DNA from: Candidatus Tepidiaquacellales bacterium OLB4/UTCHB1
GTDB lineage: Bacteria > Bacteroidota > Ignavibacteria > Tepidaquicellales > Tepidaquicellaceae
Assembly: GCA_002050165.1 (NCBI GenBank)
Contig: MWSW01000010.1
Coordinates: forward strand, 1-64,000
Length of the DNA: 64,000 bases
Reading direction: 5' to 3'
This document shows positions 42,518 to 54,198 of this stretch, piece after piece. The position numbers and the translations under genes are program-made. The notes below the pieces were generated by a model, which saw only the letters and a list, made by a program, of their open reading frames with translations, did no database searches and was not told the DNA's origin. Position 1 is the first letter of the stretch. Every line of letters begins with the position of its first letter.

Positions 42518-44608
42518 ATGCGAGGGATTACAATTAAAACTTGTTTAGCTATTTATTTTTTGATTCTGGCAATTGGAAGTAATTCTTTTGCACAGGATGT
42601 CGGTGATACGACTGATCTCAATACTGAGGAACTGGAAGAGAAACTCCTCGAATCTATTGAAGATGAAAACATTGATGAAACTACTGTGCTTGATTTTCTT
42701 GAGACTTTGAAACGCAATCCATACAACCTTAACGAAGTTTCTGAACAGGAACTCCAGAATATTCCTTTCATTAATGCGATAATTGCAAACCGAATAGTTG
42801 AATATAGAAAAAAATCAGGCAGGTTCAATTCTAAGCGCGAGCTTTTGCGGGTTGAAGGCATCACGGATGAGCTCTACGAAAATATTAAAGTTTACCTGAT
42901 CGTACCGAGATCAACTACGGATTACGTAATCGGTGAAACGGGAATTACCGAACCGGAAAAAGTAAGGTTATCTAAAGGACTTGTGGAGAGATTTGATCTG
43001 AGATATCGGGCGAGATTTATTCAAGACCTTCAAACCAAAGCAGGTTTTCTCGATAGTTCGAAGTATCTGGGGAGCAAAGCAAAAATATATAATCAGTTAA
43101 ATTTTCGTTACAATTTCCCGGATGTTAAGTTTCAGGGTAATCTGACAATTGAAAAGGATCCGGGCGAAACGGACTTAAATGATTTCAGTTCTTACGGAAT
43201 CATGATGTCAGACTACAAATGGATAAACAAGGTTATCGCAGGAGATTATACGCTGAACTTCGGGCAGGGACTATCAATGTGGAGTTCGCTGTCGTTTTCA
43301 AAGGGAGTCAATACTGTTAACGGGCTTAAAAAACGAGGACGTGAAACTAATTTATATACTTCTGTAACTGAAGTTCAGTTTTTCCGCGGTGGGCTTGCTG
43401 ACCTGCAATTCGGTAAATTCAATTTCATCGGTTACTTCTCACTGCAATCGCTTAGCGCCAGTATTGATACTCTGTTTGACGGTGTTACTTCGTTTAAGAC
43501 GGATGGATATTTCAGAACCGAATCAGAAAAAAATAAAAAGAATGCAGTAGATGAAACGCTCTTTGGTGGTAGATTAGTTTATAAAACCGATGGATTAATG
43601 CTCGGTGCTACATATTGGAATTCAAGATTCTCAAAAGATTTAGTTCCTGATAGCACGAGGGAGTTGTATGACCTTAAAGGGAAAAAGGCCAACGTTATTG
43701 GATTGGATTACGATTATGTCTTTGAAAATATTAACCTCTACGGCGAAATTTCACGGTCTCAATCAGGCTCGGTAGCTTACATTAGTGCATTACAAATGAA
43801 TTTTCTGAAAATAGCGGATGTGGTTTTTTCTTACCGCAATTATCCTGAAGATTTTAGTCCGGTTCATTCGTATGCATTCGGCGAAAAAAGCGGTGATTCG
43901 AAAAATGAAACCGGCTTCTATGCGGGAATAACGGCAAAACCTCTTAAAGGTTTGAGGATTGCTGCATATTATGATATCTTTAAGTTTCCTTATCGCTCTT
44001 TTTTCCAACCAACCTCAATCAGTGGAAACGAGTTGCTTGCAAATATTGAATGGCGCGCGGGTAAAGGTTTAGAACTCTATCTGAGGTATAAAAATGAAAA
44101 CAAAGGTCTTTCCCGAACAATTACGGATGAGTTTGGACGCGACATTAAGAGAATTGATAACAGGAATAAGTTGAATGTTAGAATCGGATTTAATTACGAA
44201 GTTAGCAAAACAATCAGGCTCAGGAGCAGGTACGAATATGTTTTTGTTGACTATGACCTTTTTGGTGGCGATAACAAAGGTTTCCTGTTTTTCTCCGATA
44301 TTAGAATAATTCCTATCACCGGGCTTGCGCTTGAAACGAGGTTGACATTCTTCCAGACTGATTCTTACGATAGCAGAGTTTATCAGTTTGAAAACGACAT
44401 AAAAGGTTTGTTCACTAACGTTGCACTCTTTGGTAAAGGTACAAGGTGGTTTCTGTTGGCGAAATATAAATTGCTGGACTTTCTTGAACTGCAAGGGAAG
44501 TATTCTGTCAGTTACATTGATGGAGCTACTTCTATCGGAAGCGGTAACGATGAGATTAAAGGCGACATCAACAATAAACTAAATCTTGGTTTAGAGATAT
44601 TATTCTGA
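42518..44608 (+). CDS. ComEA-like helix-hairpin-helix domain fused to an outer-membrane beta-barrel
   Basis: A 696-aa exported protein with a signal peptide (about 1-25, SFAQ). An acidic stretch precedes a ComEA-type double helix-hairpin-helix (about 70-127: NLNEVSEQELQNIPF, then ANRIVEYRKKSGRFNSKREL and VEGITDELYENI). The rest is a large predicted barrel of alternating aromatic strands ending LNLGLEILF. In the first hairpin the canonical GIG is replaced by FIN, so direct DNA binding through that hairpin is doubtful. It may be a DNA- or protein-capturing outer-membrane receptor. The function of this architecture is not known to me. Confidence 0.85.
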   Translation: MRGITIKTCLAIYFLILAIGSNSFAQDVGDTTDLNTEELEEKLLESIEDENIDETTVLDFLETLKRNPYNLNEVSEQELQNIPFINAIIANRIVEYRKKSGRFNSKRELLRVEGITDELYENIKVYLIVPRSTTDYVIGETGITEPEKVRLSKGLVERFDLRYRARFIQDLQTKAGFLDSSKYLGSKAKIYNQLNFRYNFPDVKFQGNLTIEKDPGETDLNDFSSYGIMMSDYKWINKVIAGDYTLNFGQGLSMWSSLSFSKGVNTVNGLKKRGRETNLYTSVTEVQFFRGGLADLQFGKFNFIGYFSLQSLSASIDTLFDGVTSFKTDGYFRTESEKNKKNAVDETLFGGRLVYKTDGLMLGATYWNSRFSKDLVPDSTRELYDLKGKKANVIGLDYDYVFENINLYGEISRSQSGSVAYISALQMNFLKIADVVFSYRNYPEDFSPVHSYAFGEKSGDSKNETGFYAGITAKPLKGLRIAAYYDIFKFPYRSFFQPTSISGNELLANIEWRAGKGLELYLRYKNENKGLSRTITDEFGRDIKRIDNRNKLNVRIGFNYEVSKTIRLRSRYEYVFVDYDLFGGDNKGFLFFSDIRIIPITGLALETRLTFFQTDSYDSRVYQFENDIKGLFTNVALFGKGTRWFLLAKYKLLDFLELQGKYSVSYIDGATSIGSGNDEIKGDINNKLNLGLEILF

Positions 44609-49155: not shown

Positions 49156-52029
49156 ATGTGTAAAACCTGTGTGAGAAATATTGCTTTTGTAATTTTTTTA
49201 ATCTGTCTAACACCTCTGGTTTCGGCACAATTTGTAGATTTCGGAAGGAATAAAGTTCAATACAATGATTTCGAATGGAGAGTTATGAGCACACCGCATT
49301 TTAAAATTTATTATTACAAAAATGCAAGAGAGATGGCAGAACACGGCGCATATTTCGCCGAGGAGAGTTACAAAATTCTCCAGCAAAAATTCACTCACTC
49401 GCTTATTGATACCGTACCAATTATTTTTTATTCATCCCCGATTCATTTCAAACAGACAAATACCACACCAGGTTTAATCCCTGATGGCGTCGGTGGTTTC
49501 TTCGAGTTTATTAAGGGCAGAGTAGTAATACCGTTTGACGGATCTCTGGGAAATTTTAAGCACGTTATACGACACGAACTCACACACGTTTTCATGACGA
49601 ATAAACTTTCTCTTCAATTGAAAAGTCACGGAACTTCTACAAGCAGAAGACCTCCATTGTGGTTTACTGAAGGATTGGCAGAATTTTTTTCTACTGAGTG
49701 GGACACGCAGGCTGATATGTTTATGTGCGATGCTGTACTGAATGATTATATAGTTGGATTGGATAACTGGGAAAAATTTTACGGAACTTTCTATATGTAT
49801 AAACTCGGACAACTCGTCCTTGAATTCATTTCAGAAAAATATGGGGGACAAACGGTGTTCGAGATACTGGAAAACTTCTGGTATAATTCAAATTTCTCTG
49901 ATATACTAGAATTCACGATAGGAAAATCTTACAGTGAGTTTGATGAGGAGTTTTTACCCTTTATAAGGGAGAAATATTTTAAAGATACACTCGATTACTC
50001 TAAGCCATCGAAGGTGTCGAAAGAAATTTACACGAAATCATTCGCACATAAGCCGGTATATACAGAGATTAACGGGATTCCGAAGATTTATTTTATTGGA
50101 AATAAGTATGGATACACGAGTATATTCAGTATTAACAAAAACGGTAATGAAACAGAAGAAGTCGTATTAGAAGGTGAATCATCCGATGAATTTGAATCGT
50201 TTCACTTCTTTCGTACCGGGCTCGATATTTCCAAAGACGGTAAACTTGCTTTTGTTACTCAAAAGGGTGAACGGGATGCAATTCATATTATGGATCTCAA
50301 CTCACATGAAGTTGAAATAGATTACTCATTCAATTCAGTTGTAGGAATAGGAACGCCAACATGGTCTCCCGATGGGAAAAGATTAGCCTTCCAGGTAATG
50401 GAGGAAACAGGTAAGAACGATATTTATATTTTAGAGCGAGAATCAAATTCGGTAACCCGTCTTACGAATGACTTTTATGATGATCGTGATCCGGATTTTT
50501 CACCTGATGGAAATTATATTGTATTTTCTTCCGACCGTACTCCTTTCGGGAATGATAATCGTTATAATTTATTCCTGTACGATCTTCGTAATGACGAAAT
50601 TTTACAACTTACCAATGGAGACTTTACGGATTATTCACCCCAGTTTTCTCCCAAAGGGAATAAAATTGTTTTCACATCTGATCGTGGCGGAAAGCAAAAT
50701 ATCTGGCTGATCGATCTCTTTCCCGAAAACGGGTTGAAATCGGAGCGCGACCTTATACGATATGATTTGCTCTTTACGAAGGGCACCGAATTTATTACAA
50801 AACGTATTTCCCGTTTTGTAACTGCCGCATATGATCCTAAATGGGTGGAAGATGATGCTCTGGTATTTTCTGTGTTTGAAAATGCTTCTATGAATTTAAG
50901 ATTCATTGATAGCGTAGAATTCAGGTTTGAAAACTCGACTATTGAAGGCAATAATGATTTTCATGCGAAGGAAGTCTGGGAACCTGGTAAAATCACTGCA
51001 TCAAAAAATATATCAGTTCAAAAATATAAGAAAGAATTTTCGCTCGATATAGCAACAACTTCACTCACTACCGATCCGGTTTTCGGCAGCAATGCAGGCG
51101 GTGTATTATCCATGAGCGATATGCTTGGAAATGAGCGATATTATTTTTTAGTATTCAATAACTCTAATACCGGGGATGAATTCTGGAAAAGTTTTAATAT
51201 TGCTATCTCAAAGTTTTCTGCTGAGGAAAGATTAAATCATGCCTATGGAATTTATCATTTGTCCGGACGAAGATATGATCTTAGGGAAAATGATTTCTCC
51301 TATTACGAGAGGATGTACGGTGCGTACTTTGCATTTTCATATCCGTTATCATTTTTCAGAAGGATTCAGACTTCGACAAGTTTATCGCAGTCTGTAAAGT
51401 ATCTTGATATTACGGATTACCGACGTTCGCTTTTGTTGTCGAATTACATTTCATATGTAAAAGATAATTCGATATGGAATTATACCGGACCTGTTGATGG
51501 TGAAAGGTTAAATGTTACTTTAGGTTACACTACCGACATTCAGAATTCCAACGTGAATTATTATTCAATTCTCGCAGATTACCGGCGATACATCAGGCTT
51601 TCAAAGGCGCTGACTTTAGCGATGCGCGGGCAATTTTTTATGAACGAGGGCACAAACCCGAGACGTTTTTTTCTCGGCGGGTCCTGGTCTTTGAGGGGAT
51701 GGCCATTGAATTCAATTCGAGGTACGAAACTTTGGCAGAGCAACATTGAGCTAAGGTTCCCGATACTGGAACCAACTTCATTTAAAACTCCGATGGGTTT
51801 TGATTTTCCCGTACCACCGGTGAGAGGTGCACTGTTCTTCGATGCAGGCAACGTATGGGATAATTCAGATAACTATGGATTTACACGCGGCAGCATCGGC
51901 GCAGGTTTAAGGTTTAACCTGTTTGGTATCGTAGTGCTGCGATATGACCTTGGGAAAAGGATTGAAAACAATTTCAGTAGCTTTCAAGGTGATATTTTTC
52001 ATCAGGTGCTGTTTGGTTGGGATTTTTAG
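49156..52029 (+). CDS. Outer-membrane gluzincin protease-TolB propeller-Omp85 barrel fusion
   Basis: A 957-aa exported protein with three modules. Signal peptide about 1-24 (LVSAQ). Module one is a gluzincin peptidase: HELTH at 140-144 and the third ligand region TEGLAEFF with glutamates 172 and 176. Module two is a run of TolB-like PD40 repeats (TPTWSPDGKRLAFQ, DPDFSPDGNYIVFSSDRT, YSPQFSPKGNKIVFTSDRGG). Module three is a C-terminal surface-antigen/Omp85-type barrel with the loop motif GGSWSLRGW near 840-848 and a terminal strand ending VLFGWDF. I infer it tethers a protease to an outer-membrane barrel. Its substrate and topology are unknown. Confidence 0.9.
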   Translation: MCKTCVRNIAFVIFLICLTPLVSAQFVDFGRNKVQYNDFEWRVMSTPHFKIYYYKNAREMAEHGAYFAEESYKILQQKFTHSLIDTVPIIFYSSPIHFKQTNTTPGLIPDGVGGFFEFIKGRVVIPFDGSLGNFKHVIRHELTHVFMTNKLSLQLKSHGTSTSRRPPLWFTEGLAEFFSTEWDTQADMFMCDAVLNDYIVGLDNWEKFYGTFYMYKLGQLVLEFISEKYGGQTVFEILENFWYNSNFSDILEFTIGKSYSEFDEEFLPFIREKYFKDTLDYSKPSKVSKEIYTKSFAHKPVYTEINGIPKIYFIGNKYGYTSIFSINKNGNETEEVVLEGESSDEFESFHFFRTGLDISKDGKLAFVTQKGERDAIHIMDLNSHEVEIDYSFNSVVGIGTPTWSPDGKRLAFQVMEETGKNDIYILERESNSVTRLTNDFYDDRDPDFSPDGNYIVFSSDRTPFGNDNRYNLFLYDLRNDEILQLTNGDFTDYSPQFSPKGNKIVFTSDRGGKQNIWLIDLFPENGLKSERDLIRYDLLFTKGTEFITKRISRFVTAAYDPKWVEDDALVFSVFENASMNLRFIDSVEFRFENSTIEGNNDFHAKEVWEPGKITASKNISVQKYKKEFSLDIATTSLTTDPVFGSNAGGVLSMSDMLGNERYYFLVFNNSNTGDEFWKSFNIAISKFSAEERLNHAYGIYHLSGRRYDLRENDFSYYERMYGAYFAFSYPLSFFRRIQTSTSLSQSVKYLDITDYRRSLLLSNYISYVKDNSIWNYTGPVDGERLNVTLGYTTDIQNSNVNYYSILADYRRYIRLSKALTLAMRGQFFMNEGTNPRRFFLGGSWSLRGWPLNSIRGTKLWQSNIELRFPILEPTSFKTPMGFDFPVPPVRGALFFDAGNVWDNSDNYGFTRGSIGAGLRFNLFGIVVLRYDLGKRIENNFSSFQGDIFHQVLFGWDF

Positions 52030-52683: not shown

Positions 52684-54198
52684 TTATTTCTTTAAAATTA
52701 AAATTGCGATAATGAAAAATATAACTGACGCCGATATTACAAAAATAATATTTTGAAATGTAAAAATCTGAACGATGAAGACAATTATTGTGATACCCAG
52801 GGAGCTGAGTAGCGGTAGAAAATTTTTAAACGGATTCTCTGTTCCTGCATTTTTTGTGAAAGGAAATTCTTTAAATGTTTTCAGATACAGAGTCCCGGTC
52901 AACAATACTACAGAAGCTATAAACAATAAGTTCAAAAATAATGAAACGGGGGAGTTGTTAAAAAAAGCAATCAGCGAAACAACAGACACAACCGGTATCA
53001 GAAAAAATACAGTCAGAAACTTAAATGATCCAGCATTTGCATCCTTGATTTGAATGTTGGTGATATGAAATAACCATTGCGTGTTTTTATCTTTTGGGTC
53101 AGATGTTTTCATTATTCGCATTAAAGAAAACATTGAAAATAAAAGTAGGATTATTACTGCGGGCGAAAGGAGATCGAATTGAGGCTTCCAGGGAAACCCA
53201 TCTGGCATTGATGATGCCTGAAAAGTCGTAGTGGACAAGAATAAACCGATAATTGAAAATATTACCGGCATTAACATCAATGATAAAAACTTTAAACTTA
53301 AATCTCTTGATCCTGTGAAAAGTTCAAAAGTTAATTGATAGAAAGCTTTTTGGTATCTATTACTGCAAAAGAAGTTCAGTGTTGAGTTTACACAAAATCC
53401 CGTGAATTGTTTAATCCCGGAGTAACCGGTTTTAATTTTGGAGTTATTGTTATCCGAAAAACTGAGAATATTTTTCGATATAAAAAAAACTGTAAATAAA
53501 ATTGTTACAAAAGTCAAAATAGTAGTAAACAGGATTAATACGGGTTGTTCAATTGACTTAGCATATAACATTTGCGGAAAGAATCTCAGATAATTTATTG
53601 ATTCAATATCCGAGCGAACACCGGGTAATTCCTGTTTAAACCCGGTAGAAATAAATATGAACACAAAAAAGATTATTTGAAAAATTATAAATAGAAACGT
53701 TGATGAACCCGATAGTTTAAATGACAGAGCAAATAAAAGCATTAAAATAAACGTTACAGTGATTGTAAATTCGAACAGTATAAGAGTGTATAAAAAAACT
53801 TCTACTATGGAATTTGAATACTGGTAGTAAAAAAAAGCCGAAGGGATCAACAACACAATCACCAAAGCAAAAGAAAACAGGAAACCTGAAATAATTTTTG
53901 AAATTGTTAAATCACCCATACTGATAGGCATTGAAGCTAAAATCCGGTTATCTCTATTAAGAAAGAAAATATTTCTGAAATCATTTAATAGCATAAAACC
54001 AAGAAAAAAAAGCGCAAGCGAAATTGTAAGAAAGATGTATCCGGTTTTAGTAAAGGTAATGTAAAAGTTATATGAAAGTATAAAGTTTGAAATCAGATAA
54101 ATCAGAAGAATTCCGACAATCTTTCTGAACGAATTGTTGTCTTTATCCCGCAAAGTTTGAGAGATGAAAAATTTAGTCAGTAAAATAGATTTTCCCAA
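52684..54198 (-). CDS. Polytopic membrane protein, orphan ABC-2-like permease
   Basis: A 504-aa protein with about 12 hydrophobic segments. A short charged N-terminus (MGKSILLTKFFISQTLRDKDN) resembles export permeases of the ABC-2 class, and a motif region FRNIFFLNRDNRILASMPI resembles the coupling segment seen in putative bacteriocin/exporter permeases of the ABC-2 type. No ATPase partner is adjacent. The flanking genes encode MltG and UbiX, with 9 and 1 nt gaps. I cannot name the substrate, and the assignment to ABC-2 is tentative; it could be another multi-spanning protein. Confidence 0.7.
   Translation of the reverse strand: MGKSILLTKFFISQTLRDKDNNSFRKIVGILLIYLISNFILSYNFYITFTKTGYIFLTISLALFFLGFMLLNDFRNIFFLNRDNRILASMPISMGDLTISKIISGFLFSFALVIVLLIPSAFFYYQYSNSIVEVFLYTLILFEFTITVTFILMLLFALSFKLSGSSTFLFIIFQIIFFVFIFISTGFKQELPGVRSDIESINYLRFFPQMLYAKSIEQPVLILFTTILTFVTILFTVFFISKNILSFSDNNNSKIKTGYSGIKQFTGFCVNSTLNFFCSNRYQKAFYQLTFELFTGSRDLSLKFLSLMLMPVIFSIIGLFLSTTTFQASSMPDGFPWKPQFDLLSPAVIILLLFSMFSLMRIMKTSDPKDKNTQWLFHITNIQIKDANAGSFKFLTVFFLIPVVSVVSLIAFFNNSPVSLFLNLLFIASVVLLTGTLYLKTFKEFPFTKNAGTENPFKNFLPLLSSLGITIIVFIVQIFTFQNIIFVISASVIFFIIAILILKK

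Follow-up and report, generated by a model that had tools for sequence, protein, structure and literature searches.

In the 64,000-nucleotide stretch of DNA analysed here, referred to as the window, an open reading frame on the forward strand (positions 49156-52029, coordinates including the stop) starts with ATG and encodes a protein of 957 amino acids. The gene stands between der, in divergent orientation, and a gene for a UbiX-like flavoprotein, in convergent orientation. A preliminary description of the sequence had read its product as a protease fused in a single chain to a PD40 propeller and an Omp85-like barrel. The features assigned to the locus are as follows.

49156..52029, + strand: peptidase / TolB-like propeller / Omp85 protein (Pfam, NCBIfam, AlphaFold2)
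49156..49227, + strand: probable Sec signal peptide, residues 1-24, ending in LVSA and followed by Q (by eye from the sequence)
49228..50010, + strand: gluzincin metallopeptidase domain, residues 25-285 (AlphaFold2, VIA-align, Foldseek, Pfam)
49573..49587, + strand: HELTH, residues 140-144, predicted zinc ligands H140 and H144 and base E141 (alignment)
49669..49683, + strand: EGLAE, residues 172-176, predicted third zinc ligand E172, plus E176 (alignment)
49798..49800, + strand: Y215, candidate catalytic tyrosine (Y in 94/94 active copies, absent in 14 pseudo-peptidases)
50011..50931, + strand: TolB-like beta-propeller, residues 286-592, with PD40 repeats near 397-521 (VIA-align, Pfam, NCBIfam)
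50932..51093, + strand: linker of about 54 residues with low model confidence (AlphaFold2)
51094..52026, + strand: Omp85-type beta-barrel of about 15-16 strands with a C-terminal Phe (PF01103, AlphaFold2, Foldseek)
51676..51702, + strand: GGSWSLRGW, residues 841-849, the Omp85 loop-6 RG[FYW] motif (alignment)
51835..51858, + strand: FFDAGNVW, the Omp85 FxDxG motif, with F894, D896 and G898 (alignment)

The three-module architecture is secure, as profile searches and the predicted structure back each of the modules. The full-length AlphaFold2 model, built on a seven-sequence alignment (mean pLDDT 68.6, pTM 0.64, with modest confidence in the barrel), runs from a helical N-terminal domain through the propeller to a C-terminal barrel, with the modules in the order first proposed. 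The preliminary description had named structure prediction and a domain search as the way to confirm the modules, and the lack of a C-terminal barrel as what would speak against them; all three modules were recovered, and the model ends in a barrel. Of the three modules the peptidase is conserved best, with a mean pairwise identity of 0.586, compared to 0.527 for the barrel part and 0.412 for the propeller. The signal peptide is followed by Q25, which at least 97% of 65 homologues share, and reading the signal peptide of the window protein I saw no lipobox in it.

Folded alone, the peptidase domain gives a confident AlphaFold2 model (pLDDT 81.8, pTM 0.82) that resembles the peptidase domains of M9 collagenases (VIA-align Z about 14-17 over 223-234 residues), followed closely by M30 and M1 enzymes; Foldseek matches it to collagenase T with an E-value of 2.6e-6. 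A Pfam run on seven members is a further basis for the domain assignment. The Pfam peptidase matches of the window protein itself are weak (Peptidase_M9, E 4.5e-4; Peptidase_MA_2, E 0.065), and the M9 score of 20.0 bits lies under the 26-bit cut-off, so the protein is not assigned to that family. The genome also has a longer paralogue (G000:C8:534901) that can be aligned with the window protein from one end to the other, and this one does clear the Peptidase_MA_2 cut-off (47.9 vs 32.4 bits), so a Pfam member of clan MA(E) is above its threshold in the long paralogue and below it in the window protein. The clan assignment follows from the HExxH motif with its downstream Glu and from the thermolysin-like fold, through the matches to M9, M30 and M1. 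The window protein shares this fold and these motifs with M9 collagenases and M1 aminopeptidases, and differs from them in domain context and location.

In an alignment of 109 proteins, the residues H140, E141, H144, E172, E176 and Y215 are invariant in all 65 short copies (the window protein included), in all 21 long copies and in 8/8 active copies from Bacteroidia, which indicates that the peptidase is under selection. The preliminary reading of HELTH and EGLAEFF as a gluzincin site is thereby borne out by residue conservation as well as by fold. It had also been stated that a dead site in relatives would count against this reading; the site is intact in the 65 close homologues and the 21 long paralogues, and is lost only in a separate clade from Bacteroidia. 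Zinc binding and proteolytic activity of the domain are predicted. By analogy, Y215 may be catalytic: according to the title of a PDB entry, a mutant of the M30 enzyme lugdulysin alters E242 and Y315, a spacing of 73 residues, compared to 74 between E141 and Y215.

The second module superimposes on TolB with a Z-score of 27.5 (246 residues, rmsd 2.3) and contains three stretches that match Pfam PD40 (E 1e-23), confirming the propeller that had been proposed from its repeats. Its likeness to TolB is one of fold: against the TolB equivalog TIGR02800 the window protein scores 118.8 bits, far under the cut-off of 343.15, and no N-terminal domain of the TolB kind turned up among its matches, whereas TolB itself is a soluble component of Tol-Pal. 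The linker between propeller and barrel is probably too short for a POTRA domain, and the Pfam search returned no POTRA family match at E-values up to 1, which sets the protein apart from the BamA and TamA types.

The barrel matches Pfam Omp85 (PF01103) over residues 707-936 with an E-value of 7e-16 and 59 bits, compared to a cut-off of 24, and a Foldseek search with the whole model returns BamA (8sqb, E 1.9e-7) as one of its matches. R847 and G848 of loop 6, as well as D896 of the FxDxG motif, are present in 65/65 short, 21/21 long and 8/8 active Bacteroidia copies, and the C-terminal F957 is found in 65/65 short homologues. These profile, motif and structural matches place the barrel in the Omp85 superfamily, as had been proposed from the GGSWSLRGW loop. 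The genome encodes further Omp85 proteins, by sequence a BamA, two more of the POTRA type and one of the patatin type; given the separate BamA, the window protein is not the main barrel insertase of this organism. A 930-amino-acid Omp85 protein (L152, G000:C4:109125-109994) has an N-terminal part that reads like a patatin domain of the PlpD type. The Omp85 profile missed a further distant relative of 1080 amino acids in this genome (L020, region G000:C12:46338-46715), which carries HEFTH, EGTAQY and PD40 repeats.

With a TolB-like propeller directly N-terminal to an Omp85 barrel, the window protein belongs to the WD40-Omp85 subfamily, one of ten defined by Heinz and Lithgow in 2014, who assigned it no function (PMC4104836). 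The main text of that paper describes no POTRA domain for these proteins, proposes that they represent a BamA-BamB-like fusion, and notes an expanded Omp85 diversity in Bacteroidetes/Chlorobi and Ignavibacteria; it does not mention a peptidase, gene partners or an inactive clade for WD40-Omp85 (PMC4104836). The separate 'metalloprotease' group in that text is based on PF00149 (PMC4104836), which in Pfam is Metallophos, a phosphoesterase family. The earlier suspicion that the architecture might be known while lacking a functional description thus proved apt for barrel and propeller (PMC4104836, main text). In 2024, the Omp85 subfamilies with metalloprotease-labelled, WD40-like and patatin-like N-termini were still regarded as not well characterised (PMC11116518). 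A recent paper on the BAM complex of Bacteroidota mentions neither WD40 nor propeller nor TolB, and in the literature searched, which includes few subscription papers, I came across neither an account of a WD40-Omp85 peptidase nor an experiment on any member. The subfamily itself is already known, but nothing in that literature was seen to describe its protease, the genes that partner it or the inactive clade.

A survey of phyletic range, also suggested in the preliminary description, found relatives throughout the class: all 149 sampled genomes contain one, and in 92 of these a short copy can be aligned along the window protein, so the architecture is not a product of chance. Long paralogues of about 1040-1160 amino acids are widespread in the class. 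In a sample of the phylum, 190 of 198 genomes give a match at E-values up to 0.001, many of these to PD40 only. Named relatives are labelled Ignavibacteria, Chlorobi OLB5, Ignavibacteriales, KSB1, Krumholzibacteriota and Owenweeksia. The plasmid collection searched yielded a single relative, on pSR116 of Salinibacter ruber (L157:5905-7806), a protein of 633 amino acids annotated as 'basic secretory protein-like', with peptidase, propeller and intact HELVH and EGMAEY, and with no Omp85 barrel in the same open reading frame.

Besides the eight active copies, 14 other Bacteroidia proteins keep the architecture and have lost both HExxH and Y215; E172 is retained in only 3 of the 14 and E176 in at most 1-2. 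These proteins form one clade (support 0.999), and by its sequences this clade indicates that the architecture can persist without catalysis. It could be argued from the loss of the zinc site in a monophyletic group, and from the presence of one active and one inactive copy in each of three Bacteroidia genomes (G177, G268 and G283), that the family consists mainly of structural or docking proteins of the outer membrane, in which the peptidase domain serves as a binding domain, the role left to it in the inactive clade, and catalysis is secondary. I consider this improbable, as every catalytic residue is kept in all short and long copies across a deep divergence, and as active and inactive copies coexist instead of one replacing the other.

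The gene neighbourhood gives a different picture within and outside the order to which the window belongs. The preliminary description had noted no obvious operon partners, and this stands for the window, where none was found, and for its order (families f1 and f2), where 0 of 19 loci, one genome being counted twice, have a BamB-like gene directly downstream. It does not stand elsewhere, as 44 of 46 homologue loci outside this order have such a gene in that position. The proposed survey of conserved neighbours thus returned partners for other lineages and none for that of the window. The product of the BamB-like gene matches PQQ_2, and its lipobox Cys is invariant in 15/15 aligned sequences. 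It is followed by a gene for a PEGA-repeat protein with probable C-terminal membrane helices, detected in 36 of the 46 loci, many of which end within the PEGA gene; at several partner loci the genes overlap by their stop and start codons (TGATG or TAATG). The BamB-like gene was absent near long and Bacteroidia copies at the loci examined. Across the 149 genomes, the PEGA gene, scored on its C-terminal part, is present in 75 of the 92 with the short form versus 1 of the 57 without it (Fisher p 2e-24, a test that ignores kinship); by the same measure the protease occurs without a PEGA gene in seven genomes of family f8. The genome of the window keeps a BamB-like/PEGA pair at another location (G000:C6:90201-92131), and judging from these gene orders the lack of partners in the window is a local rearrangement.

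Two further proteins encoded in the window may be recorded here. The gene at 42518-44608 encodes 696 amino acids, with a ComEA-like HHH_3 domain (residues 70-127) after a probable signal peptide and then a long region without Pfam matches. The 504-amino-acid product of 52684-54198 on the reverse strand has no match in Pfam or NCBIfam, and in other genomes of the family (L098, L099 and L100) it is conserved beside ubiX-like and mltG-like genes.

In 7 of 20 loci, tamB is found near the long paralogue, the two being separated by an rnr-like (RNase R) gene, and in a Krumholzibacteriota contig (L013) the long paralogue directly follows a tamB-like gene. The window gene does not adjoin tamB, and I dropped the idea that the short copy substitutes for TamA, as short loci lack a tamB neighbour. 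The position of the long paralogue could nevertheless be taken, with the strictly conserved active site and the general role of Omp85 proteins in inserting or translocating proteins (PMC4104836, main text), to indicate a dedicated export route, in which the barrel moves or inserts clients, the peptidase cuts a pro- or targeting sequence in passage and the BamB-like lipoprotein acts as client receptor. Such a route seems doubtful, since the POTRA domain, the usual client-handling module, is absent and since inspection of the neighbouring genes revealed no conserved client; the run of genes conserved upstream elsewhere in the class consists of an IDI-2-like gene and of housekeeping genes for a polyprenyl synthase-like protein, PTS enzyme I and a sugar-phosphate isomerase.

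Proteins of the BamA and TamA types have the domains that precede their barrel in the periplasm, and both ends of an Omp85 barrel face that compartment. The closest characterised analogue of the window protein is PlpD, a patatin-Omp85 protein in which a hydrolase likewise precedes the barrel, although its enzyme is of the lipase type and it has one POTRA domain, no propeller and a homodimeric state (PMC11116518). PlpD was formerly believed to move its enzyme domain to the outside, and when its topology was tested this domain turned out to be periplasmic (PMC11116518). The display option for the window protein would be that of a surface protease, its peptidase and propeller passing through the barrel or around it to work outside the cell, for instance on environmental protein or rival cells. 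The closest peptidase folds, those of secreted M9 collagenases, would be compatible with an extracellular enzyme as well; however, most of the class has the gene and it is retained together with a BamB-like lipoprotein, which is unlike an enzyme for scavenging nutrients, and the characterised N-terminal domains of Omp85 proteins, including that of PlpD, are periplasmic. I therefore regard surface action as improbable, and of the initial wording, 'displayed through, or tethered to' the barrel, tethering agrees with the confirmed barrel while display has become less likely by analogy with BamA, TamA and PlpD.

Considering what is directly observed in the family, namely its module order, the conservation of its active site and its conserved gene partners, the most economical reading is that of a periplasm-facing envelope protease, anchored by its barrel at the outer membrane, that clears or trims clients; I would give this a probability of roughly 0.42. 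The barrel would anchor the peptidase at the site of outer-membrane protein assembly, the propeller and the BamB-like lipoprotein would recruit clients or other envelope machinery, and the intact zinc endopeptidase would remove or trim misassembled or immature envelope proteins. Most likely it would work together with the BamB-like lipoprotein and the PEGA-domain membrane protein, as a protease station on the inner side of the outer membrane. A periplasmic topology, a physical complex with the partners and a role in quality control are what I infer, and it is the BamB-like partner and the example of BepA that lead me to guess at an action on misassembled barrels, as opposed to the maturation of particular clients. 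BepA and YcaL are periplasmic proteases that act on outer-membrane protein assembly (PMC13067283). As HExxH zinc proteases that work on Omp85 clients from the inner side of the outer membrane they are functional analogues only, belonging to the M48 family and not being fused to a barrel (PMC13067283). In outline the proposed role resembles that of BepA at BamA, but here the parts are unrelated and covalently joined.

A more far-reaching and tentative idea is that the peptidase-propeller-Omp85 protein, the BamB-like lipoprotein and the PEGA protein constitute a complex editing outer-membrane proteins, with the long paralogue linked to the route of TamB and the inactive Bacteroidia clade retaining only a role as scaffold or adaptor. 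The finding points to a true protease-Omp85 fusion and names two partner genes, and the occurrence of an active and an inactive copy within single genomes makes built-in proteolysis in outer-membrane barrel proteins directly testable.
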